Shown here piece after piece: positions 7,555 to 62,011 of a stretch of 64,000 nucleotides of DNA. The notes under the pieces were generated by a model, which saw only the letters and a program-made list of their open reading frames with translations, made no database searches and had not been told where the DNA came from. Origin of the DNA: a virus; the IMG/VR virus record IMGVR_UViG_3300017971_000026, positions 20,079 to 84,078 of that record. One strand, 5' to 3'. The position numbers and the translations under genes were made by a program. Each line of letters starts with the position of its first letter. The stretch's first letter is position 1.

Positions 7555-7557
7555 TCG

Positions 7558-7591: not shown

Positions 7592-7924
7592 ATGGAGTAC
7601 ACGTTGAAGAAGCCGTGTCCGAAGTGCCCGTTTCGCACCGATGTCCCGAGCTACCTCAAGCGCGGTCGGGCCGAGGGCATCGTCGACGAAATCACCCGCG
7701 ATCGTAGTGGCGGATTCATCTGCCACGAGACGGCCGAGTCGCTCGGGCATGACTGCGGCGAAAAACACTGCGCGGGAGCGTTGGTCGTCCTCGAACACGA
7801 AGGGCGACCGCACCAGATGATGCGGATCGCCGAGCGTCTGGGCATGTACGATCGCAACGCCCTCGACATGACTTCGCCCGTCTTCGAAACCCTCGAAGCC
7901 TTCGTCGAGCATCACGACGCATGA
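7592..7924 (+). CDS. DUF6283-like Cys/His protein
   Basis: 110 residues. KKPCPKCPFR near the N-terminus, a central FICHET and a GEKHCAGALV segment are the Cys/His signature of the DUF6283 family, found in phages and actinobacteria and probably metal binding. Function unknown. The last codons overlap the helicase start (ATGA), indicating a two-gene unit. Confidence 0.65.
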   Translation: MEYTLKKPCPKCPFRTDVPSYLKRGRAEGIVDEITRDRSGGFICHETAESLGHDCGEKHCAGALVVLEHEGRPHQMMRIAERLGMYDRNALDMTSPVFETLEAFVEHHDA

Positions 7925-10806: not shown

Positions 10807-11098
10807 CCGGACCCTCTGCATCGCCGCCGCGTCCGACACGGTCACGGCGGCGCACTTCAAGGGCCGTCACCGCGAGGGCAAGCCGGTCGACCTGTTCGGC
10901 CGGCGCTGGACGATCACGAAGCTGCGCGAGGTCGAGGGCCTCGTGCTCGTCGAGTTGCAGGCGAGCGAGCGCGAGGGGCCGATCATGTGCTCGAAGTGCG
11001 GGTCGTTCGAGTGGGACACGCCCGGTGGCCCGGGGATCTACGAGTGCCAGGGCTGTCCGCACCGGGGCCCCGGGCTCGATGGCGGCGTGCTGTTCTAG
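10796..11098 (+). CDS. Zinc-ribbon-like small protein
   Basis: 100 residues. The C-terminal third has CSKCGSFEWDTP followed by YECQGCP, two CxxC knuckles that make a zinc ribbon. The N-terminal part is basic. Likely nucleic-acid or protein binding. The stop codon abuts the type A element of the next gene. Confidence 0.6.
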   Translation: MRADRTLCIAAASDTVTAAHFKGRHREGKPVDLFGRRWTITKLREVEGLVLVELQASEREGPIMCSKCGSFEWDTPGGPGIYECQGCPHRGPGLDGGVLF

Positions 11099-11134
11099 GG
11101 AAGCGATCGGCGCGGCCGTAGGTAGAGATCGCCG
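11099..11134 (+). promoter_or_regulatory. Type A promoter-like element
   Basis: GGAAGC, N16, GGTAGA, eight bases, ATG 11135. Confidence 0.55.
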
Positions 11135-13012: not shown

Positions 13013-14516
13013 CCACGGCCTGCCCCACAACCCGGCGGCCGAGCTCGCCTGCGTCGCGGCGATCTACGCCCGAGGAGTCCCGGGCCTCGACCAGGTCGTC
13101 GCCGAGGTCCGAGACGCCGACGCGTTTCTCAACCCGAGGAACCAGGCGCTCTTCGCAGCGATGCTCGCCTGCGCTGACGCCGGCGAGCCGATCGCCGATG
13201 ACCAGATCGTGAGCGAGCTTCGTCGCCTCGGTGACTTCGACCGTCTCGGCGGGGCGTCGGTCTTCGAGTACCTGCGATCCGGGATCACCACGAGGACCAC
13301 CGACGCTGCGAAGGCCGTGCGCCGGGACTACATGCGCCGGCAGCTGTTCACCCAGCTGCGCGAGGTGAGCGAACGGCCGCTGCACGACGACGACGTCGCC
13401 GCCTCGATCAACGCAGCTCGACAGGTCCTCGACCGGCTCGAGCAGGACCAGGCCCGCAAGCGGGTTTCGATCCGCGACGCGGTGGCCGAGACGCGTGAGG
13501 AGCTCTACGCCGACCCCAGCGAGTTGACTGGCCACGTCCCGCTCGGCTTCGCGTCGATCGACGAGTACGCCGGAGCCCCCGAGCCCGGCGACCTGGTGAT
13601 ACTCGGCGCCGAGTCAGGCACCGGCAAGACGGCCGCGCTGCTCAGCTGGATCCGCAACGGCGTCCTGGACTGGCACGAGAACCTCGGCCGCTACCGACCG
13701 AGGGCCATGCCGATCCCGGCGCTCATGTTCAGCGGCGAGATGCTTCTGCCCAAGCTGGTCCGCCGCTGGCTCTCGGACATGGCTGGGATCGACGGACGGG
13801 ATCTTCGTGGCCGGCTCGACCCCGAGTGGCTGGAGGCGAAGCGCGGTCGGGTCACGCACCGGGAGATCGTCGACCGCGAGCTCGACATCCTCGCCGCCTG
13901 CGCGATCGAACTCGCGGACCCGCGGGCGTCGACGTCGATCGACGGGATCGCGGCAGAGGCTCGAGCTTGGCGCACCGCGATGGTCTCGAAGTACGGGGCC
14001 AAGTCGCCGGGGCTGATCGGCGTCGACTTCCTGCAGCTCGTCGACCCGCCGTCGGGCCTCGCTCGGAACATCCGCAGCGACGAGCGCGAGGAGGCGAAGG
14101 CGAAGGCACTCAAGCGCCTCGCCATGGGCACAGGAACCGTCGTCACCGCGCTCTCGCAGCTGACCGTTCCGAAGGGCGCCGAGGGTGAGCGTCCTCGGGT
14201 CTCGTGGATCCGCGGGTCGAAGGGGATCCGCAACGCGGCGGACCGGATCTACCTGCTCCATCGGCCGTGGATCCACGACCCCAACGTCAGCGACCGCGAG
14301 GCCGAGTACCAGCACCTGCGGGGACTCGCCAATGAGGGCCGGCTCGGCGATCAGGGCAAGCGCTTTCGCGGGCTCGAGCACGCTCGGCACTACGCCGAGG
14401 TCGGGATCGCCAAGGGTCGAGACGGCGCGGCGTTCCGCTGGCTGCCGCTGGACTTCGCGCCCGAGTACACGCGCTTCCTCGACTGGTCGGGAAGCGAACA
14501 CCAGGCCAACGGGTAG
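13005..14516 (+). CDS. DnaB-type replicative helicase
   Basis: 503 residues. The N-terminal DnaB_N helical domain (residues about 8-105) is followed by a linker and a RecA-like core. Walker A is GAESGTGKT at 201-209 and Walker B LIGVDFLQLV about 140 residues later. A conserved SQLT and RGSKGIRNAADRIYLL follow. As the ring helicase it would unwind the fork from the origin in the preceding gene. ATG 13005 overlaps the initiator by 8 nt. Confidence 0.88.
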   Translation: MTDHGLPHNPAAELACVAAIYARGVPGLDQVVAEVRDADAFLNPRNQALFAAMLACADAGEPIADDQIVSELRRLGDFDRLGGASVFEYLRSGITTRTTDAAKAVRRDYMRRQLFTQLREVSERPLHDDDVAASINAARQVLDRLEQDQARKRVSIRDAVAETREELYADPSELTGHVPLGFASIDEYAGAPEPGDLVILGAESGTGKTAALLSWIRNGVLDWHENLGRYRPRAMPIPALMFSGEMLLPKLVRRWLSDMAGIDGRDLRGRLDPEWLEAKRGRVTHREIVDRELDILAACAIELADPRASTSIDGIAAEARAWRTAMVSKYGAKSPGLIGVDFLQLVDPPSGLARNIRSDEREEAKAKALKRLAMGTGTVVTALSQLTVPKGAEGERPRVSWIRGSKGIRNAADRIYLLHRPWIHDPNVSDREAEYQHLRGLANEGRLGDQGKRFRGLEHARHYAEVGIAKGRDGAAFRWLPLDFAPEYTRFLDWSGSEHQANG

Positions 14517-17144: not shown

Positions 17145-17146
17145 CG

Positions 17147-17180
17147 GGAAGCGGACACCGGGGTCGCGGGTAGTTCGATC
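17147..17180 (+). promoter_or_regulatory. Type A promoter-like element
   Basis: GGAAGC, N16, GGTAGT, six bases, ATG 17181. Heads the recombination operon. Confidence 0.6.
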
Positions 17181-18237: not shown

Positions 18238-18986
18238 GCACCGAAATCGCACAACAGCAACCACAACTCACCAACGCCTTCGCCGCCGAGAGCAAGGCCA
18301 AGTTCGAACTCGCCCAACGGCAGGCCAAGGCGTTTGCCTCGAGCACGCTCGTCCCCGGCGAGTACCGGGGCAACCTCGCCAACGTCCTGATCGCCACCGA
18401 GCTCGCCGAGCGGATCGGCTGCTCGATCTTCGCGATCATGCAGAACGTCGACATCATCCACGGACGTCCGTCGATGCGGTCGAAGTTCCTGATCGCCACG
18501 GTAAACGCGTGCGGTCGCTTCACCCCGCTGCGCTTCCGCTGGGAGGGCGAGAAGGGAACTGAGTCCTTCGGGTGCCGCGCGGTGGCGACGGACCGCGAAT
18601 CCGGCGAGGAGTGCGTCGGCGCGCTGATCGACTGGCGCATGGTCAACGCCGAGGGCTGGTCGAAGAAGAAGGGGTCCAAGTGGATGACCATGCCCGAGCA
18701 GATGTTCATGTACCGCGCGGCGGCGTTCTGGCAGCGGATCTACGCGCCCGAGTTGAGCCTCGGCATGGGCACAGTCGACGAGGCGCAGGACATTACCGGC
18801 GGCTACATCGACGTCGAGCAACCGCGAGGGACCAGCCAACTCGCCGCCAGGGTCACGCAGCTGCAGGCCGAGCCGGAGCCCGAGGTCGAGCCGGACCACG
18901 ACGCGCCGCCTCCCCGCGAGCCTACGCCCGAGCCGATCCCGGTCGAGCACGATCCGGCGACCGGCGAGGTCTACGGCGGGAAGTGA
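18234..18986 (+). CDS. RecT-like single-strand annealing protein
   Basis: 250 residues. The block LVPGEYRGNLANVLIATELA, then GCSIFAIMQNVDIIHGRPSM and KWMTMPEQMFMYRAAAFW, is characteristic of RecT-family annealing proteins. The C-terminal 60 residues are Pro/Glu-rich. Pairs with the RecE-like exonuclease; together they would mediate recombination-dependent replication or end repair. Confidence 0.78.
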   Translation: MSTEIAQQQPQLTNAFAAESKAKFELAQRQAKAFASSTLVPGEYRGNLANVLIATELAERIGCSIFAIMQNVDIIHGRPSMRSKFLIATVNACGRFTPLRFRWEGEKGTESFGCRAVATDRESGEECVGALIDWRMVNAEGWSKKKGSKWMTMPEQMFMYRAAAFWQRIYAPELSLGMGTVDEAQDITGGYIDVEQPRGTSQLAARVTQLQAEPEPEVEPDHDAPPPREPTPEPIPVEHDPATGEVYGGK

Positions 18987-19012
18987 TCCTGGGCCCGGTG
19001 GGTAGACCGGGC
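18979..19012 (+). promoter_or_regulatory. Type A promoter-like element
   Basis: GGAAGT, N16, GGTAGA, six bases, ATG 19013; starts within the stop region of the RecT-like gene. Confidence 0.6.
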
Positions 19013-22228: not shown

Positions 22229-22249
22229 GGGTCGGGCAGCGTAGCACCG

Positions 22250-22284
22250 GGAAGCGGGCAGTTGCGTGCGGGGTAGGGACTGGC
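22250..22284 (+). promoter_or_regulatory. Type A promoter-like element
   Basis: GGAAGC, N16, GGTAGG, seven bases, ATG 22285; back to back with the lysin promoter region. Confidence 0.55.
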
Positions 22285-22530
22285 ATGCCCGAGCTGAAGC
22301 CCCACACCGTGTCGCTGACGATCGCGCGATGCAAAGACTGCCCGAACCTGCACGTAGGGCGGCTGTACTCCCTCGACGGCTTTGACCGGGGGTGCGACTG
22401 GACCTGCACCGCGGCGAACAACCGCGCGGTCGCGTCGTTCGTCGAGTGGCCGCGAGATGAACCCAAGACGATCCCGAGGTGGTGCCCGCTGCGCTCGAAG
22501 CCGAGCGAGGAGACCAGCGATGACCGATGA
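22285..22530 (+). CDS. Small Cys-rich protein
   Basis: 81 residues; CKDC, then CDWTC, then CPL make a likely zinc-binding fold. Unknown role. First gene of the 22285-23355 operon; its end overlaps the LuxR-type gene by 11 nt. Confidence 0.6.
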   Translation: MPELKPHTVSLTIARCKDCPNLHVGRLYSLDGFDRGCDWTCTAANNRAVASFVEWPRDEPKTIPRWCPLRSKPSEETSDDR

Positions 22531-22915
22531 CCTGCCCACGATCCGCCTCGCCTGTGAGGGCGATGAGCACGCCCACCGCGCCGCGTGCATCCTGGAGGCC
22601 GTCGGCTACACGGTCGTCCGCGACATCGCGGGCCTCGATACGATCGCCGACCGGGCGCGGGCCATCGGCGAGAAGTTCAAGCTGACCACGCGCGAGCAGG
22701 ACGTCTTCGACGGCGTGATCCGGGGCCGGTCCAACGAGCAGATCGCCCGCGAACTCGACATCAGCCGCGCGACGGTGAAGTGGCACATGCACAACGTGCT
22801 TTCCAAGACCAACACCGGGACGCGCGAGCAAATGCTACGGCTCGCCCTGTTGGGAACCGCCGGCGAGACGGTCGATCCCGATCCTGCCCAGGATTGGCCG
22901 TCGAAATGCTACTGA
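22520..22915 (+). CDS. LuxR-type helix-turn-helix regulator
   Basis: 131 residues. The C-terminal half carries a canonical GerE/LuxR helix-turn-helix: LTTREQDVFDGVIRGRSNEQ, then IARELDISRATVKWHMHN and VLSKTNTGTREQ. The N-terminal 50 residues are not a full receiver domain. Likely a phage transcription regulator; the target is unknown. Overlaps both neighbours by about 10 nt. Confidence 0.82.
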   Translation: MTDDLPTIRLACEGDEHAHRAACILEAVGYTVVRDIAGLDTIADRARAIGEKFKLTTREQDVFDGVIRGRSNEQIARELDISRATVKWHMHNVLSKTNTGTREQMLRLALLGTAGETVDPDPAQDWPSKCY

Positions 22916-25284: not shown

Positions 25285-25318
25285 GTCCGACATACCGCCC
25301 GCAACCCCGATCGCTTCC
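25285..25318 (-). promoter_or_regulatory. Type A promoter-like element
   Basis: GGAAGC, N16, GGTATG, six bases, ATG 25284 on the minus strand. Confidence 0.55.
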
Positions 25319-25340
25319 CGACGCACCCGCGCGGGTGCGC

Positions 25341-31243: not shown

Positions 31244-31281
31244 GCCCACGACTACCGCCGAGCCCCGCGTACACTTCCCGG
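31244..31281. promoter_or_regulatory. Divergent type A (minus) / type B (plus) module
   Basis: Minus: GGAAGT 31278-31273, N16, GGTAGT, seven bases, ATG 31243. Plus: TACACT 31270-31275, six bases, GTG 31282. The same overlapping design as at 3007 and 4003 but with strands exchanged. Confidence 0.6.
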
Positions 31282-33935: not shown

Positions 33936-34005
33936 GCCCGGACTACCGCGCACCCGTCCGGGTGCTTCCCGGGAAGCGATCCCGCCCGCGGCGGGTAGGT
34001 CGAGC
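33936..34005. promoter_or_regulatory. Divergent pair of type A elements
   Basis: Minus: GGAAGC 33969-33964, N16, GGTAGT, six bases, ATG 33935. Plus: GGAAGC 33972-33977, N16, GGTAGG, six bases, ATG 34006. The two GGAAGC boxes stand back to back as GGTGCTTCCCGGGAAGCGAT. Confidence 0.65.
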
Positions 34006-34882: not shown

Positions 34883-36784
34883 GTGGCCGAGCAGTCCCCG
34901 ACCCTCGATGACCTCCTGCGCGAGATCCAGCTGACGACGCCGGACGAGTACTGGCGGAAGTTCTTCGAGGATCCCGAAGGCGGGATCGCCACCTACCGCG
35001 GCGCCGCGCGGGCGCTGCTCGAGTACGCCAAGGTCGCAGGGCGAAGTGCGTCGCGGCAGTTCTTCTTGCGGCCGCCGGGATTCGAGCCGGCCGGGCCGGG
35101 AGTCCGGGCGTCGCAGCTCGTGACCTTCGGCAGGGCTTCCGGCGAGGACTCTGGCCTGTTCCTCGAAGCCGGAACCGTCTTCACCGAGGGGCCTCGCCAG
35201 CGCTTCTACAAGACCGTCGAGGACATCCAGTGGGTGCCCTTCGATCCCAACCCGACGCGCACGGTCGAGCTGCAGTCCACCGTGATCGGCGAGCCAGGCA
35301 ACCTGGACTACCTTGCCGACGACGACGGCAACCTGACGCTGCCCGAAGATCCGACGCTGCCCGGGATCGACGTGGTCGACCTGCAAGATCGGTCGCAAGG
35401 CCGTAGCGACATCAAAGCCGTGCTGACCCTCGGGCCCGCGACGCTCACCGACAACGGCCTCGCTCCGACCTTCTCGCCGAGCGACCCCGGCCTCTACCTG
35501 CGGATCAACCAGGCTGGCGACGCCGCGAACATCGGCCGCGTCCTGCGGATCATCGGGTACGGCGTGAGCACGGTCGAGGATCCGCCTGGGTCCGGCCGGT
35601 TTACGCGCTTCGTGATCCTCGACGACGGTCCGCAGCCGAACCTGGTCGAGTCCGCCCAGGCCGATGACGGCGGCGTCTTCACCGACTACACCGCGACGGC
35701 TCGCGCCGCTTCGCCTTCGGGGATCGCCTTGCTTCCGGTCGCCCCGGTGGTCAACGACGCGTTCTACTTCGGCGGACCGGAGCCGTTCTCGCAGATCGAC
35801 ATCGACGTCCAGCAAAAGCGGGTGGGTGACCTGGACCTGACCTGGGAGTACTGGGACGGGGTCGCGTGGGTGGCCTTCTTGGCGGTCGAGCTCGTCGACG
35901 GGACCGAGGCCTTCTCGATCGAAGGCGTGCGTCCGGTGACGATCACGCCGCCCGCGGGCTGGGCATCGACCACAGTCAACGGGGTCCCGGCGTTCTACGT
36001 CCGCGCGCGCGTCTCCGCCTTCGTCTCGCAGTCGCAGCAGCCCCTCGCCGGCCGTCTGCTGATCTACTACGGGGATCCGCTGCAGCCCGACCCGCTGGAC
36101 CCAAACGGCGACGGCCAGATCAGCTGGACGATCCTCGACGCCAAAGACCTCGGGGTCGTGATCGAGTCGATGACCGCACCGGCTGGAGGCCGCGACGACG
36201 ACCTCGGCCTGAAGCTGCGCGAGCGCGGGATCCAGCGGATGCCCGGAGAGTCCGAGGACCAGCTGCGCCGGCGCGCGTCGAGGTTCGACGACGTGGTCTC
36301 GCCCGAGCTGCTCGAGCGTAAGATCCTGCGGATCCTCGAGCCCTACGGCCTGACCGCCGAGATCTGCGACGTCGGCTACGACGGGCCTGGCGCGCCGAAC
36401 TTCTCCGGCCTGTTCTGGGACGTCGACCCACAGTTCGCGCCTGGTGTTGTCGGGGCGTGGGACCTCTACGGGCCTGGCGACGCGTTCCCGGTCAATGACA
36501 GCTTCCTTCCGTTGTCGATCAACGAGGCTCGGTGGCACTTCTTCGTGTGCGTCCCGCCGCCAACCCTCGGCGAGTTCGGGGCCGCATGGGACGATGGGCC
36601 GCCGGCCTACTTCGAGGCGAGCTTCGGGACGTTCCTCGGCAGCGCGTGGGACTTCGCGTTCGTCGACGGCTACGCGGCGCTGTCCTCGGCGCTGTACATG
36701 GAGGTCTACGACTGCCTCAAGTCCGCCAAGGGCGGCGGGATCGGCTACACGCTGATCCAGAAGGACCTCGTGGGCTGCCCTTAG
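34883..36784 (+). CDS. Large baseplate/tail protein
   Basis: 633 residues. Long beta-rich middle with Asp/Gly/Pro loops. A C-terminal region LRRRASRFDDVVSPELLERK, then ILRILEPYGLTAEI, recalls baseplate proteins of the gpI / tail-I type. The type B start places it in the late class. It stands alone on the plus strand far from the other baseplate genes at 60-63 kb. Specific role not resolved. Confidence 0.55.
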   Translation: MAEQSPTLDDLLREIQLTTPDEYWRKFFEDPEGGIATYRGAARALLEYAKVAGRSASRQFFLRPPGFEPAGPGVRASQLVTFGRASGEDSGLFLEAGTVFTEGPRQRFYKTVEDIQWVPFDPNPTRTVELQSTVIGEPGNLDYLADDDGNLTLPEDPTLPGIDVVDLQDRSQGRSDIKAVLTLGPATLTDNGLAPTFSPSDPGLYLRINQAGDAANIGRVLRIIGYGVSTVEDPPGSGRFTRFVILDDGPQPNLVESAQADDGGVFTDYTATARAASPSGIALLPVAPVVNDAFYFGGPEPFSQIDIDVQQKRVGDLDLTWEYWDGVAWVAFLAVELVDGTEAFSIEGVRPVTITPPAGWASTTVNGVPAFYVRARVSAFVSQSQQPLAGRLLIYYGDPLQPDPLDPNGDGQISWTILDAKDLGVVIESMTAPAGGRDDDLGLKLRERGIQRMPGESEDQLRRRASRFDDVVSPELLERKILRILEPYGLTAEICDVGYDGPGAPNFSGLFWDVDPQFAPGVVGAWDLYGPGDAFPVNDSFLPLSINEARWHFFVCVPPPTLGEFGAAWDDGPPAYFEASFGTFLGSAWDFAFVDGYAALSSALYMEVYDCLKSAKGGGIGYTLIQKDLVGCP

Positions 36785-37560
36785 AACAGCGGCAGCGTCC
36801 CGGTTGAGTTCGCGCGCGTCGGCGTCGCCGATATCCGGTCGAGCGCATCCTCGAAGGTCGCACGGTCCGCCTCCGACCCGAGCCCGTCGAGGCCGAGCTC
36901 GCGCGCGGCCATGAGCGTCGTCGCGCTCCCGGCGTAGGGGTCGACGACACGCGGCCGAGGAGGCCAACCCGGGACGCGCGAGGAGTCCTTCGGGATCGCG
37001 TAGTCTCGGACGATCTCCCGCATGATCCCGAGCGGCTTGCCGCCCGTCCTCGGCGACCGCGGATCGTTGGGGCTGCGGATGTAGGCTCCCGAAAGCGTCC
37101 CCCACCTCTGGAACTGAGCCGTTCGCGGGCGCGCGACCACGAGCCACCACGACCACGACGAAGGGCCGTCCCCCGACAGGCGGCAGCGCGACCCGACGTC
37201 GACGATCGGGATCGGCGGGAACACGAGGCGCCCCGCGTCGCTCAGGTGGTCGGACCAGACCGGCGCGAGGTTGTGGTCGGTGATCGACGCGACCCAGCCG
37301 AGCGTGCGCTCAGACCAGCTGGCGACGAACGCCTCGACGTCTGCCTCGTCAAGGAACTCGTAGCTGATCTGATCGGTGTAGCCCGGCCGATGTCGGTAGC
37401 GAGGGTCTCGGGGCTTGTCGCCGCGCGAGCGAGCTGCGCGGCCGTCGTTGCCGTAGCCGTCGTGCGTCTCCTTGCCGAAGGGCCCGTCGAAGATCAGCGC
37501 GTCGGCGGTCTCTCCGTCGAGGGTCTCCTGCCACCTTCCGTGGCGTAGCTCAATGCTCAC
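36781..37560 (-). CDS. DNA methyltransferase (N4/N6 class)
   Basis: 259 residues. The catalytic-type loop ALIFDGPFG (DxPF) comes first and the SAM-binding DPYAGSATTLMAARELG comes near the C-terminus: the motif order of beta-class amino-methyltransferases. GTG overlaps the sigma-factor stop, so it is co-translated with the sigma gene. Confidence 0.7.
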   Translation of the reverse strand: MSIELRHGRWQETLDGETADALIFDGPFGKETHDGYGNDGRAARSRGDKPRDPRYRHRPGYTDQISYEFLDEADVEAFVASWSERTLGWVASITDHNLAPVWSDHLSDAGRLVFPPIPIVDVGSRCRLSGDGPSSWSWWLVVARPRTAQFQRWGTLSGAYIRSPNDPRSPRTGGKPLGIMREIVRDYAIPKDSSRVPGWPPRPRVVDPYAGSATTLMAARELGLDGLGSEADRATFEDALDRISATPTRANSTGTLPLF

Positions 37561-38093
37561 GCGACCGCTTCGAGCAAGGGGCGAGCGTGGGCGAGCTTCT
37601 TGCGCAGGGCGATCCGTGACCTCGACGTGCGGCCGTGGATCGTGTTGCGGGTCGTGCCCTGGACCTCGGCGATGTCGGCGTGGCGCTGGCCCTTCATCGC
37701 GCGGAGGGTCGCGTCGCGCCAGGTCTCCGGGAGATCGTCGATCGCCTCGCGCACGGTCGAGTCGATCAACTCGCGGGCGCGCGCGTCGTCGATACGGCCC
37801 TCGAGCTTCTCGAAGTCGGTGACCTCGGACTTGGCCCAGCGATGCTCGACGGCGACGCGACGCGACCGACGCCCAACGTCGTTGAGGTGAGCGTTGCGCA
37901 TGATCGTGAAGGCCCAAGCCGACGGTGTCGCGCGCTCGGGGTCGTAACGGTCGATCGCCTTCCAGATCCGCAGCTGCGTGTCGGCGACGAGGTCCTCGGC
38001 GTCGGCGACGTTGCCGGTGAGCTTGATCGCGATGCGCCGCATCGATGGCGCGAGAGGGGCGAAGTACTTGGTGAAGATCTGCGTGGTGGTCAT
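37557..38093 (-). CDS. ECF-like sigma-70 family RNA polymerase sigma factor
   Basis: 178 residues. The sigma-2 region is LVADTQLRIWKAIDRYDPER followed by SAWAFTIMRNAHLNDVGR. A linker follows, then the sigma-4 region EAIDDLPETWRDATLRAMKG with AEVQGTTRNTIHGRTSRSR as recognition helix. No sigma-1 or -3 domain: ECF size and layout. It would direct RNA polymerase to phage promoters; the type A or C elements are natural candidates. ATG 38093 is chosen because TAGGAT lies seven bases upstream; ATG 38102 would overlap that box. Confidence 0.78.
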   Translation of the reverse strand: MTTTQIFTKYFAPLAPSMRRIAIKLTGNVADAEDLVADTQLRIWKAIDRYDPERATPSAWAFTIMRNAHLNDVGRRSRRVAVEHRWAKSEVTDFEKLEGRIDDARARELIDSTVREAIDDLPETWRDATLRAMKGQRHADIAEVQGTTRNTIHGRTSRSRIALRKKLAHARPLLEAVA

Positions 38094-38106
38094 GTCGGTC
38101 ATCCTA
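38094..38106 (-). promoter_or_regulatory. Type B-like element of the sigma-factor gene
   Basis: TAGGAT, seven bases, ATG 38093 on the minus strand. Confidence 0.4.
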
Positions 38107-38136: not shown

Positions 38137-40311
38137 TCAGGCGGTCAGCGAGGCGATCCGCAGCTTCACGTGGCCGACGATCGAGGCGATCTTTCCGACG
38201 CGATGCACGCGCTTGGTCTTGCCGATCCCGCGCTCGTCGACGGTGTCCGCGTCGCGAACCAGCGAGACCTTGATCGAGTCCTTGCCGACGCCGCGGACCT
38301 GGCCGCCCTCGATCGTGCTGGCGACCTTGCAGGTCACGCGACCGCGCTTGCGGGTGTAGATGACCTCCCAGTAGCCGCGAGCGGGCTTGCTCGGGGTGAA
38401 GCCCAGGCCGCGCAGCTCGGCGTCGAGGCGGCGCGCCAGGGCCACGCGAGCGGCGGCGGCGTGCGGGTCGTAGGTGTCCGGGGCGTCGGCGGCGACGGGC
38501 GGGAGCGGGGCGGGCTGATCGTTCTCGGGCTTGGCGTCGCGGTCTAGATACCCTGGGTCGTGCTTGCGCCCGGGGTGCGCGCAGTCGACATGCGCGTGAT
38601 GGCCGGGCCCCTTGAGGCTCTGGACGACACTCATGACCGGCAGGCCATCGACGGGCGCCCCACACTTGTGGCAAGGCCCAGCGATCCCCGCGACGATCGG
38701 GTCGTCGTCCTCGTCGTCATCGCCACCCACGTCAATCACGCCGTCGAGCATCACCAGCTCCTCCTGCGCGCGCGTCACCGCGACGTCGAGCAGGTTCCGC
38801 TCCTGCTCGACCATCCACGGGCGCGAGTTCGGCCACGCTTGACCGAGCCGCTCGGGCTTGGCGATGAACACCCGCGGAGCTTCGAGCCCCTTCGCCCGGT
38901 GCACCGAGCTGAGCACGACCTTGGGGTCCTGGTCTTCGAACAGCTTGGCGATCGCGGCCTTCAGCTCGTTGGCCGACTTCGCGCCCGACGAGATCCAGAT
39001 CACCCGGATGCACTCGGCCTGGTCGGAGATCGCTTCGAGCCGCGCGGCCAGGGCGTCCTCGCTGCGCTTGCCGTAGCGCTTGCGGGCCTGGTCCTTCTCG
39101 CGGTCCTCCCAGTCGTCGAGACCGAGGCCGAAGTCCGCGAAGCTGCGACCCTTGGCCGCGACGGTGATCACCTTGGCCAGCCCCTTGCCGAGGTCGCGAC
39201 CGCGGACCGCCGCGCTCACGCCGTTTCCGATCAGCTTGAACGCGAGGCTGAGGAGCGGCGCGTTCAGGCGACAGAGGACCATGTCGCCGCGCCGGGCCTC
39301 GTCGAGGAACGCGTCGGTGGTCGAACTGCGGACGACGCCCTCTGGAGCGCCGGGGCGAGCCTCGATCTGCGGGACGATCTCGCGGGCGAGGTCGAGGACG
39401 CTGGTCGGGCAGCGGTAGCAGACGCTGAGGGGTAGGACCTTCGCGTCGAACTCGGTGATGATCGCCTGGAACGACGCGCTGTCTGCTCCCGCGAAGCCGT
39501 AGATCGCTTGATTCCTGTCGCCGATCGCAAGCAGTCGGCCGTTCTTCGTCAGTGACCGGCCGATCAGGACCCGGTGCGCCTTCGAGATGTCCTGGCACTC
39601 ATCGACGAAGATCGACGAGTAGGTCGCGGGCTGCAGTCCGAGTTGGCAGGGGAGCCAGACCATGTCGGTGAAGTCGACGATCCTCGGGTTGTCGGCGCCC
39701 CACTGCATGGCGAGGCGGGCGACGTCGACAATCAGCTGCTCGACGGCGCCGGGGAAGTCGATGTTGTGATGGTCCGCGAGGGCGAGGAGATCGGCAGCGA
39801 AGCCAGGGCCCGCCTCAGGCGCGACTAGGCTCAGCCGCGCGAGGTCGATCAACTTGAGGGTCGAGCTGCGCGGGAAGCCGTCGTCGATGACCGACTTGAT
39901 CTCGGCGGGCGTGAGCGCGTCGCCGCGGAGGGTCTGCGCGGCGTCGACCTCGGCGATGCAGCCGTCGACGAAGTCGCGGTACTTGCCGGCGTCGACCTTG
40001 ACCCGGCCGAAGGCCCGGCGGACCGCGCCGAAGCCATGCGAGTGTACCGTCGAGGCGACCATCCCGGTCCCCTTCAGCTCGGTGTTCAGCATCGTGGCGA
40101 TCGACCTGTTGAAGGCCAGGAACAAGCCCGATTCGACCAGCTTCGCGCAGCTGACGATGGTCGTTGTCTTGCCAGATCCTGCGCAGGCCTCGACCACGCC
40201 GTTGCCCTCGCCGTCCGCGACAAAGTCGAAGATCGCGGCTTGATAGGCGCTCGGGACGTAGGTCAGCTCGAGGCGGTCGCGCCAGGCTTCGGGGGTCATG
40301 CTCGTCGTCAT
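38137..40311 (-). CDS. UvrD/Rep-like superfamily 1 helicase
   Basis: 724 residues. Motif I ACAGSGKTTT (about 43), motif II IFVDECQDIS, motif III AIGDRNQAIYGFAGAD, motif V SSVHRAKGLEA and motif VI NLLDVAVTRAQEEL are all present. The C-terminal 200 residues hold a CHKCG...HVDC zinc site and a possible OB-like tail. Likely a 3'-5' helicase for replication or repair. ATG 40311 (MTTSMTPEAW) is preferred over 40341 because a type C element ends at 40312. Confidence 0.85.
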   Translation of the reverse strand: MTTSMTPEAWRDRLELTYVPSAYQAAIFDFVADGEGNGVVEACAGSGKTTTIVSCAKLVESGLFLAFNRSIATMLNTELKGTGMVASTVHSHGFGAVRRAFGRVKVDAGKYRDFVDGCIAEVDAAQTLRGDALTPAEIKSVIDDGFPRSSTLKLIDLARLSLVAPEAGPGFAADLLALADHHNIDFPGAVEQLIVDVARLAMQWGADNPRIVDFTDMVWLPCQLGLQPATYSSIFVDECQDISKAHRVLIGRSLTKNGRLLAIGDRNQAIYGFAGADSASFQAIITEFDAKVLPLSVCYRCPTSVLDLAREIVPQIEARPGAPEGVVRSSTTDAFLDEARRGDMVLCRLNAPLLSLAFKLIGNGVSAAVRGRDLGKGLAKVITVAAKGRSFADFGLGLDDWEDREKDQARKRYGKRSEDALAARLEAISDQAECIRVIWISSGAKSANELKAAIAKLFEDQDPKVVLSSVHRAKGLEAPRVFIAKPERLGQAWPNSRPWMVEQERNLLDVAVTRAQEELVMLDGVIDVGGDDDEDDDPIVAGIAGPCHKCGAPVDGLPVMSVVQSLKGPGHHAHVDCAHPGRKHDPGYLDRDAKPENDQPAPLPPVAADAPDTYDPHAAAARVALARRLDAELRGLGFTPSKPARGYWEVIYTRKRGRVTCKVASTIEGGQVRGVGKDSIKVSLVRDADTVDERGIGKTKRVHRVGKIASIVGHVKLRIASLTA

Positions 40312-40346
40312 CGCGCGGTCCAACCGGGCCCAACGCGCCATATTCC
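40312..40346 (-). promoter_or_regulatory. Type C promoter-like element
   Basis: GGAATA, N14, CGGTTGG, eight bases, ATG 40311. Further upstream lies AAAAAAGATCGAGAAAGT, shared with the site at 48722. Confidence 0.6.
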
Positions 40347-40420
40347 GCCACTTCCCAACTTTCTCGATCTTTTTTCTGATCTACCCACGACCTGCCGCCA
40401 CTACCACTGTGAGCATCGCG

Positions 40421-40454
40421 GGAAGCGCCCGGCCGCCCGGCGGGTAGACCGGGC
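40421..40454 (+). promoter_or_regulatory. Type A promoter-like element
   Basis: GGAAGC, N16, GGTAGA, six bases, ATG 40455. Divergent from the type C element of the helicase. Confidence 0.6.
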
Positions 40455-46778: not shown

Positions 46779-46812
46779 GCTCGGGGTACCCGCGAGCCGG
46801 TCTACCGCTTCC
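46779..46812 (-). promoter_or_regulatory. Type A promoter-like element
   Basis: GGAAGC, N16, GGTACC, six bases, ATG 46778; overlaps the end of the HD-domain gene. Confidence 0.55.
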
Positions 46813-47470
46813 CGAGCAGCGCCTCGACCTCGGTCCGCCAGCACTCGCCTGGGCGAGGGGCGATCAACGGCATGAAGCGCGGGATCACGTCCGAGTGACG
46901 CACCGAGATCGGCGCGGCCGCGTCCGACCCCCACGGGAAGACGTCGGGCGCCCAGTCGATCGCGCCCGGCTGCCACAGCAGCGCCTCGAAGTAGAGCGCG
47001 ATCGCATCGGCGGTCTTGACGATTTCGAACGTCCGCTCGTCCGGTAGTGACACGCCCAGCGCGAGACGGATCGCGGAGTCGACCTGATCCTCCGCCTCGC
47101 GCATCTCCGGCGTCTTGCCCGGCCGCAGGCAGTCGCCCCACGGGACGAGTGCCTCGTGGGCGTCGTGCAGAAGCGCCCAAATCGGCACCCCGTCGAGCAG
47201 GGCCGCGTGCCGTTCGAGCACGTCCACGGCCTGGCCCTCCTCGAACATGCTCGGAGTTGGCCCGATCAACTCGACCGCGATCCGGCGCACCCGCAGCGAG
47301 TGCTCGGCGATCGTGATCGGCCGTAGCGTCTGGCCGTTGAACCGCGGCGCCTGCAGGCCGTGCTCGAGCACGTCGAGGTTGATGACGCTCGGGTCCGGCG
47401 CGAGGTGGTCGAAGTACTCGCCCGTGACGAGCATGACGGGGGTAGGGGTATTCGGGGTCGTCGGGTCCAT
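46802..47470 (-). CDS. HD-domain phosphohydrolase (YfbR-like)
   Basis: 222 residues. TIAEHSLRVRRIAVELIG supplies the first His, ALLHDAHEALVPWGD the HD pair, and IVKTADAIALYFEALLW the late Asp, matching the HD hydrolase fold of 5'-nucleotidases. It may adjust nucleotide pools. ATG 47470 is set by a type A element. Confidence 0.72.
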   Translation of the reverse strand: MDPTTPNTPTPVMLVTGEYFDHLAPDPSVINLDVLEHGLQAPRFNGQTLRPITIAEHSLRVRRIAVELIGPTPSMFEEGQAVDVLERHAALLDGVPIWALLHDAHEALVPWGDCLRPGKTPEMREAEDQVDSAIRLALGVSLPDERTFEIVKTADAIALYFEALLWQPGAIDWAPDVFPWGSDAAAPISVRHSDVIPRFMPLIAPRPGECWRTEVEALLGKR

Positions 47471-47505
47471 GCCTGAGCCTACCCGCGGGGCGGGCGGTCG
47501 CTTCC
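47471..47505 (-). promoter_or_regulatory. Type A promoter-like element
   Basis: GGAAGC, N16, GGTAGG, seven bases, ATG 47470; the end of the methyltransferase frame lies inside it. Confidence 0.55.
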
Positions 47506-48327
47506 CGCGAGTAGCAGGTCGAGCAGCGAGCGGATCGCTACCGCGGCTTGCTGGGGCACGCATCCGTTGCCGGTGGCCCGGAGTCGACTTCGCCGCGAGG
47601 CCCTGGCCAGGTCCACCCCAGCGGCCAGCCCATCAACCACTCGACCCACGTCGGGTTCAGCTTCCCAGACCGCCCAGGGCCCGTCGGGTCCCCATTGTCC
47701 CCCGTGACCGCGTCGGTCAGGCTCGTCCCCGCGTGGGCGTTGCTCGTGCTGTAGTTCCGCGAGCCCGACGCCTTCGCGTCGCCCGCTGTCGGCGTCGGCC
47801 ACATGGCCACGGCGGTCCGAAGGCTTGGTCCACCTTGCCGATCCCCGTCGCCTGCACCATTCGCGTCCGATGTCGTCGGCGTCGGGAGCAACGGCAACGA
47901 CGAACACGCGGTCGCGTCGGTGGGGAGCTCCGACGTCGGCAGCTCGCAGGCACCGCCAGGCCCCCACATACCCGCGGTCGGCCAGGTCGGCGAGCACTTG
48001 CCCAAACGCGAGCGCGCGAGACGACGTGAGTAGGCCGCGGACGTTCTCCAACACCACGAGTCGGGGTCCCACCTCGCCGATGATCCGGTCGATGTCGGTC
48101 CAAAGCCAGCGAGCGTCAGTTGTCCCCCTGCGCTTACCCGCCTGGCTGAACGGCTGGCAGGGGAAGCCGGCAGAGACGAGATCCACTCGGCCACGCCACG
48201 GGCGGCCGTCGAAGGTGGCAACGTCATCCCAGACAGGAGCCGGGGCCAGGTCGCCGTCCTGCATGCGTGCCGCCAGGACCCCCGCGACAAAGGCTTCGCG
48301 TTCGACGTAACAGACAGTCGATGCTCC
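47479..48327 (-). pseudogene. 5-cytosine DNA methyltransferase lacking its N-terminus
   Basis: The open stretch begins at GASTVCYVEREAFVAGVLAA and has the catalytic GFPCQPFSQAG, LVVLENVRGLL, RRDRVFVVA and terminal RATGNGCVPQQAA motifs. The first 30-40 residues of the family, with the SAM-binding DLFxGxGG motif, are missing. Upstream of 48327 the DNA is the coding sequence of the gene at 48721 in another frame, so a deletion or recombination has joined the two. No good start codon precedes the homology (ATG 48429 is in foreign sequence, ATG 48264 is internal). Probably inactive unless joined by frameshifting. Confidence 0.6.
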
Positions 48328-48721: not shown

Positions 48722-48756
48722 CGCGTGGCCTAACCGGGCTCTCCCGATCTTCTTCC
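48722..48756 (-). promoter_or_regulatory. Type C promoter-like element
   Basis: GGAAGA, N14, CGGTTAG, eight bases, ATG 48721; preceded by AAAAAAGATCGAGAAAGT as at 40312. Confidence 0.55.
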
Positions 48757-51060: not shown

Positions 51061-51095
51061 CGGTCGCGCTAACCGCGTGATCGCTGGGCTATTCC
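51061..51095 (-). promoter_or_regulatory. Type C promoter-like element
   Basis: GGAATA, N14, CGGTTAG, eight bases, ATG 51060. Confidence 0.6.
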
Positions 51096-51607
51096 CGGCC
51101 ATTTTACGCGCTGATCGCGAACGTGCCCCGGGGGCGGTTGCGCGTGTGCGCCGCGATCTGGCTCCCCGAAGACGCCGTTTCGAATGTGCCCCGGGGGCGG
51201 TCATAACGGTTCAAACCACAGTGGTCGCCCACAGCGTGCTGTTTGCAGCCTGGGGTCGGTCTCCGTCGCGATCGGTGTGCGGCCCGCTCGAGCTCGGTTA
51301 TCGCGCGCCAGCGGCCGCGATCGTGACGCGGTCGGCGCGATCGGTCGGCGCGATCGGTCGGCGGTCGCGATCGCGCTTGGACGACGGCGGCGCAGCTCGG
51401 AGATCTCCCCCGGCCTTCAGGTGGTCGCCCTCCGCGCACCCGCGTGCTCAGCGGTCACCCCGTGGCGCGATGGTCGCAGGCCGAGATGGTGGCGACCGAC
51501 GCCCTGCTCCAGGCCGATGACGGCCTCCGGAGATCTCACCGTTGGCGAAGCTCCGCGATCTCCGCAGACGACGCAGGACGATCCCGATCGATCGCGAGAA
51601 GGCGACG
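51096..51607. other. Non-coding repeat-rich region between divergent operons
   Basis: About 510 nt with no convincing gene on either strand. It has two copies of a 21-bp element (51118-51138 and 51181-51201, core GTGCCCCGGGGGCGGT) exactly 63 bp apart. It also has a tandem run of GGTCGGCGCGATC units (about 51330-51375) and many GATC sites. The second 21-bp copy differs at one base. Candidates are operator sites, a second origin, or a packaging/terminus region. Confidence 0.6.
51118..51201. repeat. Paired 21-bp direct repeats
   Basis: CGAACGTGCCCCGGGGGCGGT at 51118-51138 is repeated with one change at 51181-51201. The 63-bp spacing equals six helical turns, as expected for two binding sites on the same DNA face. 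Confidence 0.7.
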
Positions 51608-51643
51608 GGAAGCGCTCGTGGGCGCCGCCGGTACCTCGACCAC
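51608..51643 (+). promoter_or_regulatory. Type A promoter-like element
   Basis: GGAAGC, N16, GGTACC, eight bases, ATG 51644. Confidence 0.55.
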
Positions 51644-52300
51644 ATGAGCAAGCCGAAGCGACCACCCCTCACGCACGCGGTCCGCCCTTCGACCGGGACG
51701 CCGCCGATGCAGGCGCCAGCGGTCTCGGTCTACGCGGCTCCTCCGCCGCAGCACCAGTTCACGCAGCCCGTGCAGCCGATCGATCTGCCACCGTCGATCA
51801 ACATCGAAGTCGACACCGAGCCCATGAGTCGAGAGCAGCGCATGTCGATGATCAAGACGCTGGTCGCCGAGCTCGACCGGTCGGAGCGCGCGCGCGTGCG
51901 GAAGCTGCTCGCCGCGCACGACTCCTTCGACGAGGTAGGGGTCGAGGTGACGGTCAACATGGGGGAGGCCCATGATCGCGTCGCCGCGGACTTTGCCAGG
52001 CGGTTCGTGGCCAACGCCAAGAAGCAGCTCGTCGCCCTGACCCTCGACGTCGAACTGCTGGACGACTCGATCCAGGTCCGATGCGAGCAGTCGACGCCCG
52101 CGGGCGCGGCGATCTACGCGGCGATGTCGGACGACCTCAAGATGCTGATGGCCGACGGCGCGGTCAAGGTCGACAACATCTGCAGGATCCTCGACCGTCA
52201 CCGAGCGACGATCCGAGGCCAGGACGTGGTCGAGATCTCGATCTGGTCTGGCCCCGCGTCGGACAGTTACCTGTTGCGCGTTTGGCGGCCGGGGGAATAG
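51644..52300 (+). CDS. Hypothetical protein
   Basis: 218 residues. Pro/Gln-rich N-terminal 45 residues, then a helical region (SREQRMSMIKTLVAELDRSE) and an alpha/beta C-terminal domain. No recognised family. First plus-strand gene after the repeat region. Confidence 0.55.
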   Translation: MSKPKRPPLTHAVRPSTGTPPMQAPAVSVYAAPPPQHQFTQPVQPIDLPPSINIEVDTEPMSREQRMSMIKTLVAELDRSERARVRKLLAAHDSFDEVGVEVTVNMGEAHDRVAADFARRFVANAKKQLVALTLDVELLDDSIQVRCEQSTPAGAAIYAAMSDDLKMLMADGAVKVDNICRILDRHRATIRGQDVVEISIWSGPASDSYLLRVWRPGE

Positions 52301-52327
52301 GCCCGCGGGCTCGAGGTTGGGTCGACC
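52294..52327 (+). promoter_or_regulatory. Type C promoter-like element (variant)
   Basis: GGAATA, N14, AGGTTGG, seven bases, ATG 52328. One base shorter than the other type C sites. Confidence 0.45.
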
Positions 52328-53923: not shown

Positions 53924-53958
53924 GGAATAGGTGATGGCGGGGCCGGTTGGACCGCGCG
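53924..53958 (+). promoter_or_regulatory. Type C promoter-like element
   Basis: GGAATA, N14, CGGTTGG, eight bases, ATG 53959. The last 18 bases (CGGTTGGACCGCGCGATG) are identical to those of the helicase promoter at 40312. Confidence 0.65.
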
Positions 53959-54111: not shown

Positions 54112-54434
54112 GCACTGCATTCCCCGTCGCCTCCGTCCGCCGCATGTACGCGACTCTGTCCGTGCGAGGTCCCGCGCGCACTCGCGCCGCCTTCTGCACG
54201 GTCGTCGACATGATCGATATGGGCACGCTGACGCCCGAGGTCGTGGCCGACGTCATCCTCGGAAAGACCACGATCGCTCAGGCGGTGCGCGACGTCGCCG
54301 AGGTCATGGCCGACGGTGCCGCAGACTGCGACGACGCGGAGATCGCCGCCGACATGGAGCGCGTCGCGGCCGACTGTCGGGCGGCATCGGACGCGCTCAA
54401 CCCGATGGGCGCGGTCAGCCCTCGCGCGGCCTGA
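54108..54434 (+). CDS. Hypothetical helical protein
   Basis: 108 residues. A PEVVADVILGKTTIAQAVRD segment resembles a small helix-turn-helix but is not conclusive. End overlaps the convergent methyltransferase gene by 20 nt. Confidence 0.5.
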   Translation: MSTAFPVASVRRMYATLSVRGPARTRAAFCTVVDMIDMGTLTPEVVADVILGKTTIAQAVRDVAEVMADGAADCDDAEIAADMERVAADCRAASDALNPMGAVSPRAA

Positions 54435-55707
54435 CCAGCTGCGCCTTGCGGCCGGTCTCGCGCTCCCACCTGGCCACGGTGACGTCGCACATCGCCCGCT
54501 CCATCTCCATCGCTCGAACCCGTCGCCCGGTCCGCTCACCCGCGATGATCACAGAGCCCGATCCGTTGAAGAGGTCGAGCACGATCTCGCCCTCGTCGCT
54601 GCTGTTCTCGATCAGCTCCGCGAGCATGGCGACGGGCTTGGCCGCGTTGTGCAGGCGCTCGTCTCCGGTGGGGCGGTTGTGCCCGCGCACGACGTTGGGC
54701 TTGAACACCTGGCGATGCCCAGCGATCCGGCTGCTGGTCATCTTGTGCTTCGGCGGCTCCCGCACGAAGAACGCGATCATCTCGTAGCAATGGGCGTACA
54801 TGCTCCCAAGGCCTCCGCCCCCCTTGTCCCAGATCAGCGCGTTCTTCGGGCTCATCTTCGCGCCCTTCAGACCATCCCAGATCGTCGCCCAGCTGCGCCA
54901 GTCGCAGCACACGTAGACGTGGGCGAACTCGCGGACGCTGCCGACGATCACGAACCCGAGCCGCGCGAAGAAGGGCCGGATCATCTTGTCGTCGGCGATG
55001 TCCGCTCCGATCCCGGTCGAGCTTCCGTAGATCGCGAACGGAGGATCCATGAGCGCCATGTCTGCGATCTCGCCGTCGAGGAGAAGCGCCCGAGCGCCCT
55101 CGTCGAAGCTGTCGCCACAGACGAGGCGATGGTCGCCGAGGATCCACAGGTCGCCCGTCTGCGTGACAGGTTCCTTCGGCGGCTCGGGTAGCGGCGGCTC
55201 CTCGCCCCCCCCTTCGCCCCGCTCATGCTCGCCGACGGTCGAGACCTCCTCGAGCGGCCACTCGACGTCGAAGCCCTCAAAGTCCGCCGCCTCAAAGCCG
55301 ACGTCGCCCCAGTCGAAGTCCGGCTGCTCGCCGATCGTCTCCGCGAGCTGCTCGGGGTGCCACTCCGCGAGCTCGGCGCTGCGGTTGTCGACGATCGCCA
55401 ACTCAGCGGCCTCCTCGGGCGTCATCGGTCGAAGCTCGCCCGTCTCGGGGTCGCGGACCTTGTCGACGAAGACGGCGACGATCTGCTCGGCGCCCATGTC
55501 GATCGCTCGAGTCACGGTGCCGTTGCCGGCGATGATCACCCCGGTCGGCTCGTAGACGACGATCGGCTTGACCTGCTGGAACTTGCCGAGGCTGTGCTCG
55601 ATCACCGCGAGGTTGCGGTCGTTGTGGCGGCGTGCGTTGTGCGGGTCGAGGGTCAGGCTCGCGATGTCGACGAGCTTCGGTCGGAGGGCTGGGGCGTCAG
55701 CGTCCAC
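54415..55707 (-). CDS. ParB-like domain fused to a DNA methyltransferase
   Basis: 430 residues. Residues about 10-115 are a ParB/Srx-type domain (LTLDPHNARRHNDRNLAVIE, then VIIAGNGTVTRA). A Pro/Glu-rich linker follows, then an amino-methyltransferase domain with GDSFD, MALMDPPFAIYG (DPPF), and VLDLFNGSGSVIIAGE. Such fusions are common in phages and probably modify specific DNA sites. GTG 55707 is chosen because TATCCT lies six bases upstream; the frame is open 6 codons further. Confidence 0.78.
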   Translation of the reverse strand: MDADAPALRPKLVDIASLTLDPHNARRHNDRNLAVIEHSLGKFQQVKPIVVYEPTGVIIAGNGTVTRAIDMGAEQIVAVFVDKVRDPETGELRPMTPEEAAELAIVDNRSAELAEWHPEQLAETIGEQPDFDWGDVGFEAADFEGFDVEWPLEEVSTVGEHERGEGGGEEPPLPEPPKEPVTQTGDLWILGDHRLVCGDSFDEGARALLLDGEIADMALMDPPFAIYGSSTGIGADIADDKMIRPFFARLGFVIVGSVREFAHVYVCCDWRSWATIWDGLKGAKMSPKNALIWDKGGGGLGSMYAHCYEMIAFFVREPPKHKMTSSRIAGHRQVFKPNVVRGHNRPTGDERLHNAAKPVAMLAELIENSSDEGEIVLDLFNGSGSVIIAGERTGRRVRAMEMERAMCDVTVARWERETGRKAQLVRPREG

Positions 55708-58144: not shown

Positions 58145-58873
58145 CTACTCGGGCCAGCCAGCGGCCGGCTCGATGTCGTCGACCTCGACTTCACGCCCGA
58201 GTCCGTCGAGCCACGGGCCCTTGCTCTGCGGGCGCCACAGTCCCCGGCTCATGATGATCTGCGCATGGGCCTGCTCGCAGCCGCTGCCGATCAGCGTCGC
58301 GTCTAGACCACGCACCGACTCGCATCCGGCCCAGGAGATGATCCCGGGTCCCGCGCCGAAGCTCGTGCCATGTCGCTCGACGTAGCGCCAAGCCGCCTCG
58401 ACGGCCGCCGAGTGCATGTGCTGCGCCTCCGCGCGGCGGACCACGTAGGTGTGGAGGCCCCGAGCTGCGCGCGCGACCGCCTCGACGTCGAGGTCGCCGG
58501 ACTGCTGCATCGCCTTGCGGTCCTCGAGCGTCCAGTCGAGTTGGACCTCGGTCACGCTCGCGGCCTTCGAGCTGAGGTGATGCGGGAGCACGCCGATCAC
58601 GTGCTTGCCGCGGACGTTGGCGGCGTTGTGTCCGTCGGCGAGTGCTTGCGCTTCGAGCACGTCTAGATCGCGGGCGATCGTGCCGCCGCAGATCACATCG
58701 TAGACGTCACGGCGTAGGCTGATCTTGGCGGTCCGAGCATGGGCATGGGCGTGCTCGACCACGGGCGTCGAGTCGTCGATGTAGCCCTCGCGGATCAGGT
58801 ACTCGACGAGGGGAGCGTGGCGCGTGACGACGAGGTCGAAGCGCGCGGGGACGTAGGTGTTCTTGGTCTTCAT
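58145..58873 (-). CDS. Csx16-like protein (candidate cyclic-oligoadenylate ring nuclease)
   Basis: 242 residues. The N-terminal FDLVVTRHAPLVEYLIREGY and the later HVIGVLPHHLSSKAASVTEV, then QLDWTLEDR, mirror the two most conserved parts of Csx16 (VTRHxGAxxW and VIGTLPVHLAAxV...LSL). Csx16 and related small proteins degrade the cyclic tetra-adenylate signal of type III CRISPR systems. About 45 extra residues lie between the two blocks and about 80 after them. If correct, it could be a phage anti-CRISPR enzyme. The similarity was judged by eye. The context CCAGAACACGAA before the ATG is shared with the gene at 59223. Confidence 0.45.
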   Translation of the reverse strand: MKTKNTYVPARFDLVVTRHAPLVEYLIREGYIDDSTPVVEHAHAHARTAKISLRRDVYDVICGGTIARDLDVLEAQALADGHNAANVRGKHVIGVLPHHLSSKAASVTEVQLDWTLEDRKAMQQSGDLDVEAVARAARGLHTYVVRRAEAQHMHSAAVEAAWRYVERHGTSFGAGPGIISWAGCESVRGLDATLIGSGCEQAHAQIIMSRGLWRPQSKGPWLDGLGREVEVDDIEPAAGWPE

Positions 58874-59886: not shown

Positions 59887-59921
59887 CGGTCCACCCAACC
59901 GCACCCCGCCGATCTTATTTC
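59887..59921 (-). promoter_or_regulatory. Type C promoter-like element
   Basis: GAAATA, N14, CGGTTGG, eight bases, ATG 59886; an AT-rich tract with TTTTTTCGAGAT lies upstream. Confidence 0.55.
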
Positions 59922-61974: not shown

Positions 61975-62008
61975 GCCCGGTCTACCGCGAGCCCCACCGA
62001 TCGCTTCC
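61975..62008 (-). promoter_or_regulatory. Type A promoter-like element
   Basis: GGAAGC, N16, GGTAGA, six bases, ATG 61974. Confidence 0.6.
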
Positions 62009-62011
62009 CGC

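Follow-up and report, generated by a model that had tools for sequence, protein, structure and literature searches.

A phage-encoded ECF-type sigma factor and a repeated bipartite promoter that it probably reads

The 64,000-nt stretch analysed here (the window, bases 20079-84078 of the 84,078-base IMG/VR record IMGVR_UViG_3300017971_000026) carries on its minus strand an open reading frame of 178 aa that runs from an ATG at position 38093 to a stop codon ending at 37557. The protein matches the Pfam domain Sigma70_r2 (4e-18), PHROG 1740 "RNA polymerase sigma factor" (4e-19) and, under Pfam's curated cut-off, Sigma70_r4_2 (4e-4). Its AlphaFold model (mean pLDDT 90, pTM 0.49) comprises two confident helical domains connected by a floppy link, and the best fold matches of this model in the PDB are the sigma-E and sigma-H factors of M. 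tuberculosis. The gene product is an ECF-type alternative sigma subunit with only the sigma-2 and sigma-4 regions, and the same reading in an earlier note on this DNA is borne out by the strong region 2 match, the weaker region 4 match and the two-domain model. Directly upstream of the sigma gene lies a UvrD-like helicase gene (38137-40311, minus strand, its start corrected to the ATG at 40311), preceded by a promoter-like sequence of the class referred to below as type C (GGAATA-N15-GGTTG, 40321-40346, minus strand), whereas the stop codon of the sigma gene is overlapped by a DNA methyltransferase-like gene (36781-37560, minus strand), which is a conserved neighbour. The sigma gene also has its own start of the type B class, the -10-like element TAGGAT at 38101-38106 (minus strand), 7 nt ahead of the ATG, as had been noted before. 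A related phage contig (G001, see below) has the same TAGGAT-N7-ATG arrangement ahead of its sigma gene and a promoter of the same type C class ahead of the cluster. Cognate anti-sigma genes are common, though not universal, beside genes for ECF (group 4) sigma factors; no anti-sigma-like neighbour was recognised here, the genes flanking the sigma gene matching helicase and methyltransferase families.

The contig is marked as a tailed phage because it encodes a terminase, a portal protein, a baseplate protein and a weakly matching tape-measure-like protein. The GC content is 66-70% in each 2-kb step of the window, and the 64-kb window contains no tRNA genes. Nothing close to a 20-kb query from the window turned up in a set of 50,697 phage records; host assignment failed, and the matches were distant and to phages of many hosts. 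Genes were called with a self-trained codon model, which gave 134 genes in the contig and 127 in the relative, and the sequences upstream of the called genes were then read. One sigma factor was found in each of the two phages. A region-4-like match at 22679-22801 was rejected as a second sigma on reading the sequence, which is that of a LuxR-type HTH protein (22520-22915, plus strand) encoded in a gene group led by a type A promoter and having no best-hit partner in the relative; a second candidate in the relative, a weak match inside the orthologue of the gene at 24338, was rejected in the same way. Phage-encoded ECF sigma factors had been described in the earlier note as rare, a view that has to be narrowed: small ECF-like sigmas are listed, as predictions, for many uncultured phages, and it is those with a known promoter set that are rare.

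The sequences upstream of the called genes fall into three promoter-like classes, and they agree with the previous suggestion that the window holds at least two non-sigma70 grammars (types A and C), each with a GGAA box. Type A, a repeated bipartite promoter unlike the host housekeeping type, consists of GGGAAG-N17-GGTAG followed after 7 nt (sometimes 8, rarely 6 or 9) by ATG or GTG. There are 23 exact type A sites in the contig, 17 of them in the window, and 22 in the relative, against an expectation of 0.01 per genome from a first-order Markov control; the pattern read backwards had no match in the two phages. With spacers of 15-19 nt allowed, the spacer was 17 nt in all 45 exact sites of both phages. 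A start codon lies 6-9 nt past the exact site in 22 of 23 cases here and 22 of 22 in the relative, and the ORFs behind these sites span 23-345 codons. When one mismatch was permitted and a start codon required, each phage had 30 sites, with 0.7 one-mismatch sites expected per genome before the start-codon requirement; a few of them, such as the one at 12890 (plus strand) inside a gene, may be chance matches.

The type A sites of the window lie on both strands. Sites with recognisable downstream genes include 6194-6221 (plus), which heads a gene group whose last member is a DNA helicase (7921-9555); 17146-17173 (plus), followed by a small ORF and the genes for exonuclease VIII and RecT; 18978-19005 (plus), whose downstream group includes a resolvase-like gene; 22249-22276 (plus), ahead of the group with the LuxR-type HTH protein; 31252-31279 (minus), which serves a DHH phosphoesterase gene and interlocks with a type B promoter that belongs to a head-gene-like ORF (start 31282, plus); and 47479-47506 (minus), ahead of a gene for a dNMP phosphatase-like protein whose orthologue in G001 has a type A site as well. 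The sites at 9528-9555 (plus), 11098-11125 (plus) and 40420-40447 (plus) are likewise found at orthologous genes in G001. Those at 3009-3036 (plus) and 4006-4033 (plus) are interlocked with type B promoters, of a neck-like gene (start 3006, minus) and of a gene starting at 4002 (minus), respectively. The core at 1379-1406 (plus), antiparallel to a type B promoter whose gene starts at 1376 (minus), is the sole exact site that has no start codon 6-9 nt downstream. Further exact sites are located at 498-525 (minus), 14489-14516 (plus) and 61982-62009 (minus), and sites with one mismatch at 7557-7584 (plus), 25292-25319 (minus), 46786-46813 (minus, orthologous in G001) and 51607-51634 (plus). Two sites, at 33943-33970 (minus) and 33971-33998 (plus), form the left and right halves of a back-to-back pair, of which the right half is orthologous in G001.

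The type B class is a TANNNT element, mostly 6 nt ahead of the start codon. Exactly this distance is seen for 23 of the 132 starts in this phage and for 23 of the 127 in the relative, compared to 0-2 starts for almost any other distance between 0 and 43 nt; this spacing is as expected for leaderless housekeeping promoters. Type C (GGAATA-N15-GGTTG, 8-9 nt from the ATG, often with an A-rich stretch upstream) has six sites. In addition to the one ahead of the helicase gene, these lie at 51070-51095 (minus, one mismatch), 52294-52319 (plus), 53924-53949 (plus), 59896-59921 (minus, one mismatch) and 48731-48756 (minus). The distance from GGAA to GGT is 22 in type A versus 21 in type C. The two classes are not perfectly separate, since the site at 48756 (minus) fits type A with one mismatch and type C with two and is therefore ambiguous.

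The classes head different sets of genes. The recognised virion genes that have their own promoter (terminase, portal, baseplate, tape-measure-like and neck) have type B, whereas type A heads the DHH phosphoesterase gene, the dNMP phosphatase-like gene, the exonuclease VIII and RecT group, the group that closes with a DNA helicase gene, and many genes without recognised function. The earlier suggestion that a large matching promoter set would amount to a takeover system is weakened by the host-like type B promoters of the virion genes; a "middle" role agrees better with the presence of type A on DNA-metabolism genes and genes without recognised function.

Scans of IMG/VR led to a single relative. 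This phage, IMGVR_UViG_3300035185_000025 (G001; 81,566 bases), was found through the promoter pattern alone: the type A pattern with a downstream ATG had four matches in it and one each in 14 other contigs, and a second type A pattern had several matches in it and one in each of seven other contigs, so that in both scans only the relative exceeded one match. Of the 14 contigs with one match, the three that were tested lacked the sigma gene, and their single sites had a spacer of 16 nt, not 17. The sigma gene of the relative, located between helicase and methyltransferase genes as it is here, encodes a protein of 170 aa that is 36-38% identical to the 178-aa sigma. A default IMG/VR scan with the sigma protein returned no relative, a degenerate pattern for the sigma helix had the relative as its sole match in IMG/VR, a scan with the alignment of the two sigmas again returned only G001, and a terminase-based scan returned G001 and one weak 7.4-kb contig. 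In a genome collection, the sigma protein matched generic cellular ECF factors among the best 80 of 295 matches. The two phage proteins group together in a tree, from which no conclusion is drawn because both have long branches and the root is a midpoint root.

A comparison of the two phages gave 61 reciprocal best-hit pairs, and their terminases are 65% identical. Since they are related over most of the genome, the co-occurrence of the sigma gene with the type A set counts as one observation. The promoter could be classed on both sides for 28 of the 61 pairs, of which 20 were B/B, seven A/A and one C/C, with no mixed pairs; in a further 11 pairs one member alone could be classed, and in 22 neither could. 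Over the seven A/A genes the two phages agree at 76 of 77 positions of the 11-base type A core, whereas the 17-base spacers match at 45 of 119 positions, compared to 303 of 714 in unmatched pairs. The spacers are thus saturated, being no better conserved than in unmatched pairs, and the cores are not, so the core is under selection; this contrast is the strongest evidence that type A is functional.

A function other than that of a promoter, for example as an operator, would agree with the location of some type A sites in or beside palindromes, but it is very improbable, as orientation, distance to the start codon and the 17-nt spacer are all fixed and the core is not palindromic. A palindrome GCACCC-N4-GGGTGC, with small variations, is found just upstream of the -10 element of type B promoters, including that of the terminase gene, and also inside a back-to-back type A pair. 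It recurs at orthologous places in the two phages (23335, 25323 and 33950 in the window; 52331, 54938, 63933 and 27779 in G001) and is likely to be the operator of a phage regulator.

The part of the sigma protein expected to read the -35 box is conserved between the two phages. Whereas the two sigmas are 34% identical over 166 aligned columns, the second helix of region 4 (TTRNTIHGRTSRSRI) has 13 of its 15 residues in common (permutation p 0.0015, in a test that takes no account of the usual conservation of the sigma-4 helix). Part of this match is ordinary conservation, since in cellular ECF pairs with a comparable overall identity the region 4 helix is on average 65% identical. Between the sigma described here and the cellular ones, the identity in this helix averages 29% and reaches 40% at most, and three residues, N150, G154 and T156, are present in both phage sigmas and in none of 38 cellular sequences. 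In the open complex of sigma-H, as described in PMC6411747, Arg186 reads G-34, Ser182 reads G-33, and Met181 reads A-31 and packs on -31/-30. These residues align with R158, G154 and H153 (D in the relative) of the phage proteins. At the latter two contact positions the cellular proteins have Met in 26 and Ser in all of the 38 sequences, and the phage sigmas have His or Asp and Gly, so that in both phages the residue reading the first G is retained, and the other two, which shape the rest, are replaced. The -10-reading side differs between the phage sigmas (N67 here, R in the relative) although the type A -10 box is the same in both, which counts against a reading of type A by these sigmas.

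The geometry of type A also points to sigma-H. With the A of the ATG taken as +1, the GGAAGC of type A falls at -34 to -29 and its GTA at -11 to -9; in the sigma-H scaffold, according to the same source (PMC6411747), GGAACA occupies -34 to -29 and GTT forms the -10 element, with T-10 and T-9 flipped. In terms of sequence, type A is the sigma-H geometry changed at -30, -29 and -9. M. tuberculosis sigma-H and Streptomyces SigR thus resemble the phage sigmas in fold, being among the nearest solved structures, and their promoters resemble type A in register, but the phage proteins swap Met for His or Asp and Ser for Gly at the -35 contacts (PMC6411747). Compared to the sigma-H/SigR promoter GGAAYA ... 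GTT, type A (GGAAGC ... GTA) departs in its bases, while type C keeps the bases (GGAATA, GTT) and departs in a spacer that is one base shorter. Several cellular homologues have GGAAT-N17-GGTT ahead of their own start codons (at about 35 nt in L038, L041, L059 and L060, and at 34 nt in L050). Given the sigma-H bases of type C and these cellular sites, type C looks like a site for a cellular sigma-H-type factor, whereas type A resembles a derivative for which a derived reader would be needed.

These observations make it probable that the phage sigma, started from its type B promoter and encoded behind the type C operon, reads type A. The promoter class read by the sigma was regarded in the earlier note as not decidable from sequence; the evidence favours type A over type C, and autoregulation through type C still has room, given that type C heads the operon containing the sigma gene. 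The proposed connection of the sigma with a phage-wide promoter set is thereby supported indirectly, by the co-occurrence of the two in the only relative found, the conserved and rewired -35 helix, the exact ECF register and the lack of type A enrichment in bacterial genomes; binding itself is inferred. ECF (group 4) sigma factors target promoters that have a GGAA-type -35 element and a strict spacer; promoters of that kind are present here, and the sigma is their presumed reader.

Reading of type C by the phage sigma, which would then drive its own cluster and a few small early genes and leave type A to a host ECF or another factor, is considerably less probable. It would account for the position of a type C promoter ahead of the helicase-sigma cluster in both phages, which, with the habit of many ECF sigmas of reading their own promoter, also speaks against the assignment to type A. 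It would also suit the match of type C to the consensus of sigma-H, chains of which belong to the solved structures closest to the phage sigma, and the GGAAT-N17-GGTT-N9-ATG sites ahead of the cellular homologues' own genes, through which this sigma family autoregulates. Yet the residues with which sigma-H reads GGAAY are missing from the phage sigmas, the type C spacing is one base shorter than that of the cellular autoregulatory sites, and in each phage the sigma gene starts from a type B element of its own. It is somewhat less probable again that the sigma reads both classes. They do have in common the GGAA box and a GGT at -10, and the site at 48756 (minus) fits both, but the spacing is fixed and different (22 versus 21), and no orthologue has been swapped between A and C.

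The scans of bacterial genomes bear on a host reader of type A. Type A was not enriched in 26 bacterial genomes (77 sites versus 85 for the reversed pattern) or in a further scan of 42; the genomes scanned were picked via sigma homology and may not include the host, so that a host ECF factor with type A specificity is conceivable. A looser sigma-H-like pattern had 64 sites in the 26 genomes versus five for the reversed pattern and 30 for the pattern with a wrong spacer, which makes the excess about twofold rather than tenfold. Exact type C had 24 sites in 198 actinobacterial genomes, compared to three for the reversed pattern, and a stricter type C pattern had none in 27 genomes. Type C as a plain host promoter was rejected: no host stands out, with at most two exact sites in any of the 198 genomes.

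ECF repertoires vary widely among bacteria. This would allow type A to be read by a host factor, with the phage sigma competing with host sigmas or altering host expression; there is a parallel in the sigma factors of some phages that alter host dormancy, as reported in PMC9429907. Such an arrangement is unlikely in view of the absent enrichment in both sets of bacterial genomes and the finding in the IMG/VR scans that type A is present in quantity only where the phage sigma occurs.

If the phage sigma reads type A, the following scheme can be proposed. Transcription of the sigma gene by the host housekeeping RNA polymerase would begin at its type B promoter, and it may be supplemented via the type C promoter of the cluster, read either by a host ECF resembling sigma-H or by the phage sigma. 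The phage sigma would bind the host core polymerase and direct it to some 30 type A promoters (GGGAAGC-N16-GGTAG), and most of the transcripts would be leaderless because the predicted transcription start is at the A of the start codon. Given that type A heads DNA-metabolism genes and many small genes without recognised function, the sigma would act as a middle-stage switch that turns on the type A genes and leaves the virion genes with their host-type promoters.

The two sets of promoters are physically interlocked. A type B element with its start codon runs antiparallel across seven of the 30 type A sites here and eight of the 30 in the relative, and at five such sites per phage the type B start codon lies 2-3 nt from GGGAAG. 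This places the two promoters on one and the same stretch of ~38 bases, where two holoenzymes could hardly fit together. Judging from this overlap, a mutual block is likely, and at these five sites per genome the phage sigma on type A should shut out the opposite host-type promoter. Back-to-back type A pairs are found at 33943-33998 of the window and in G001 at 22212, 63953/63954 and 2132/2134; their -35 boxes, mostly TTCCCGGGAA, touch or nearly touch, which means that both members of a pair could hardly be occupied together.

A bolder and more tentative proposal is that a sigma-H-type sigma and its promoter have been made into a private pair, by a change of three promoter bases, together with the helix residues that match them, within an unaltered geometry. 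The host and phage sigmas would then be blind to each other's sites, about 30 promoters would start transcription on the start codon, and, with several of them antiparallel on top of host-type promoters of virion genes, one sigma could both activate its own genes and block the opposing set.

The precedents for this system are Salmonella phage 7-11 and phage phiEco32. According to PMC8948821, gp47 of phage 7-11 is a phage sigma with region 4 that works with the host core polymerase on late genes, its eight promoters having been shown in vitro, and these promoters are bipartite with a fixed spacer (GTAAtg-16-aCTA). The phage described here is similar in having a sigma with region 4 and bipartite promoters of fixed spacer, but differs in its approximately 30 predicted, mostly leaderless promoters of another sequence that head DNA-metabolism genes and genes without recognised function. 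The phi32_gp36 protein of phiEco32, also a phage sigma, serves middle and late genes and, again according to PMC8948821, differs in its single-element promoter (tAATGTAtA) and in having no region 4 homology. Uncultured tailed phages and Cronobacter phage GAP52 have predicted ECF/RpoE-like sigmas that are likewise small phage-encoded ECF folds, with 13-22% identity to the present sigma in 11 matches at E < 0.001. What is added here to the precedents is the sigma-H-like register, the larger number of predicted sites, the leaderless starts and the interlocked pairs. No published phage sigma with such a register or with leaderless starts was found in the open-licence literature; a term search of the available text of PMC4331800 gave no mention of ECF, and the available parts of PMC5311408, PMC8270828 and PMC10117723 had no bearing on this sigma-promoter case.

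If the assignment to type A is true, a phage regulon comprising one sigma and about 30 promoters would be readable from sequence alone, and the sigma and its sites would have stayed matched in two phages whose terminases are 65% identical. They would represent a natural orthogonal sigma-promoter pair near a solved structure, that of sigma-H, and a clean test of how -35 specificity shifts. The promoters of two sigmas would lie antiparallel on the same ~38 bases, leaderless starts would be tied to a phage sigma, and a virus could redirect its host without a polymerase of its own.

Three other features of the window deserve mention. Repeats of ~22 nt (GGATCAAACCATCC type), direct and inverted, are located at 12218-12398 inside an ORF upstream of a DnaB-like helicase gene, and this array possibly represents origin iterons. 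The gene at 58145-58873 (minus) matches the Pfam family Cas_VVA1548, a putative CRISPR-associated family, above the curated cut-off (3.7e-8). Finally, the gene at 54415-55707 (minus) encodes a ParB-like domain fused to a DNA methyltransferase; the best match of this fusion in the relative, a protein of 182 aa, aligns with it over 149 aa.
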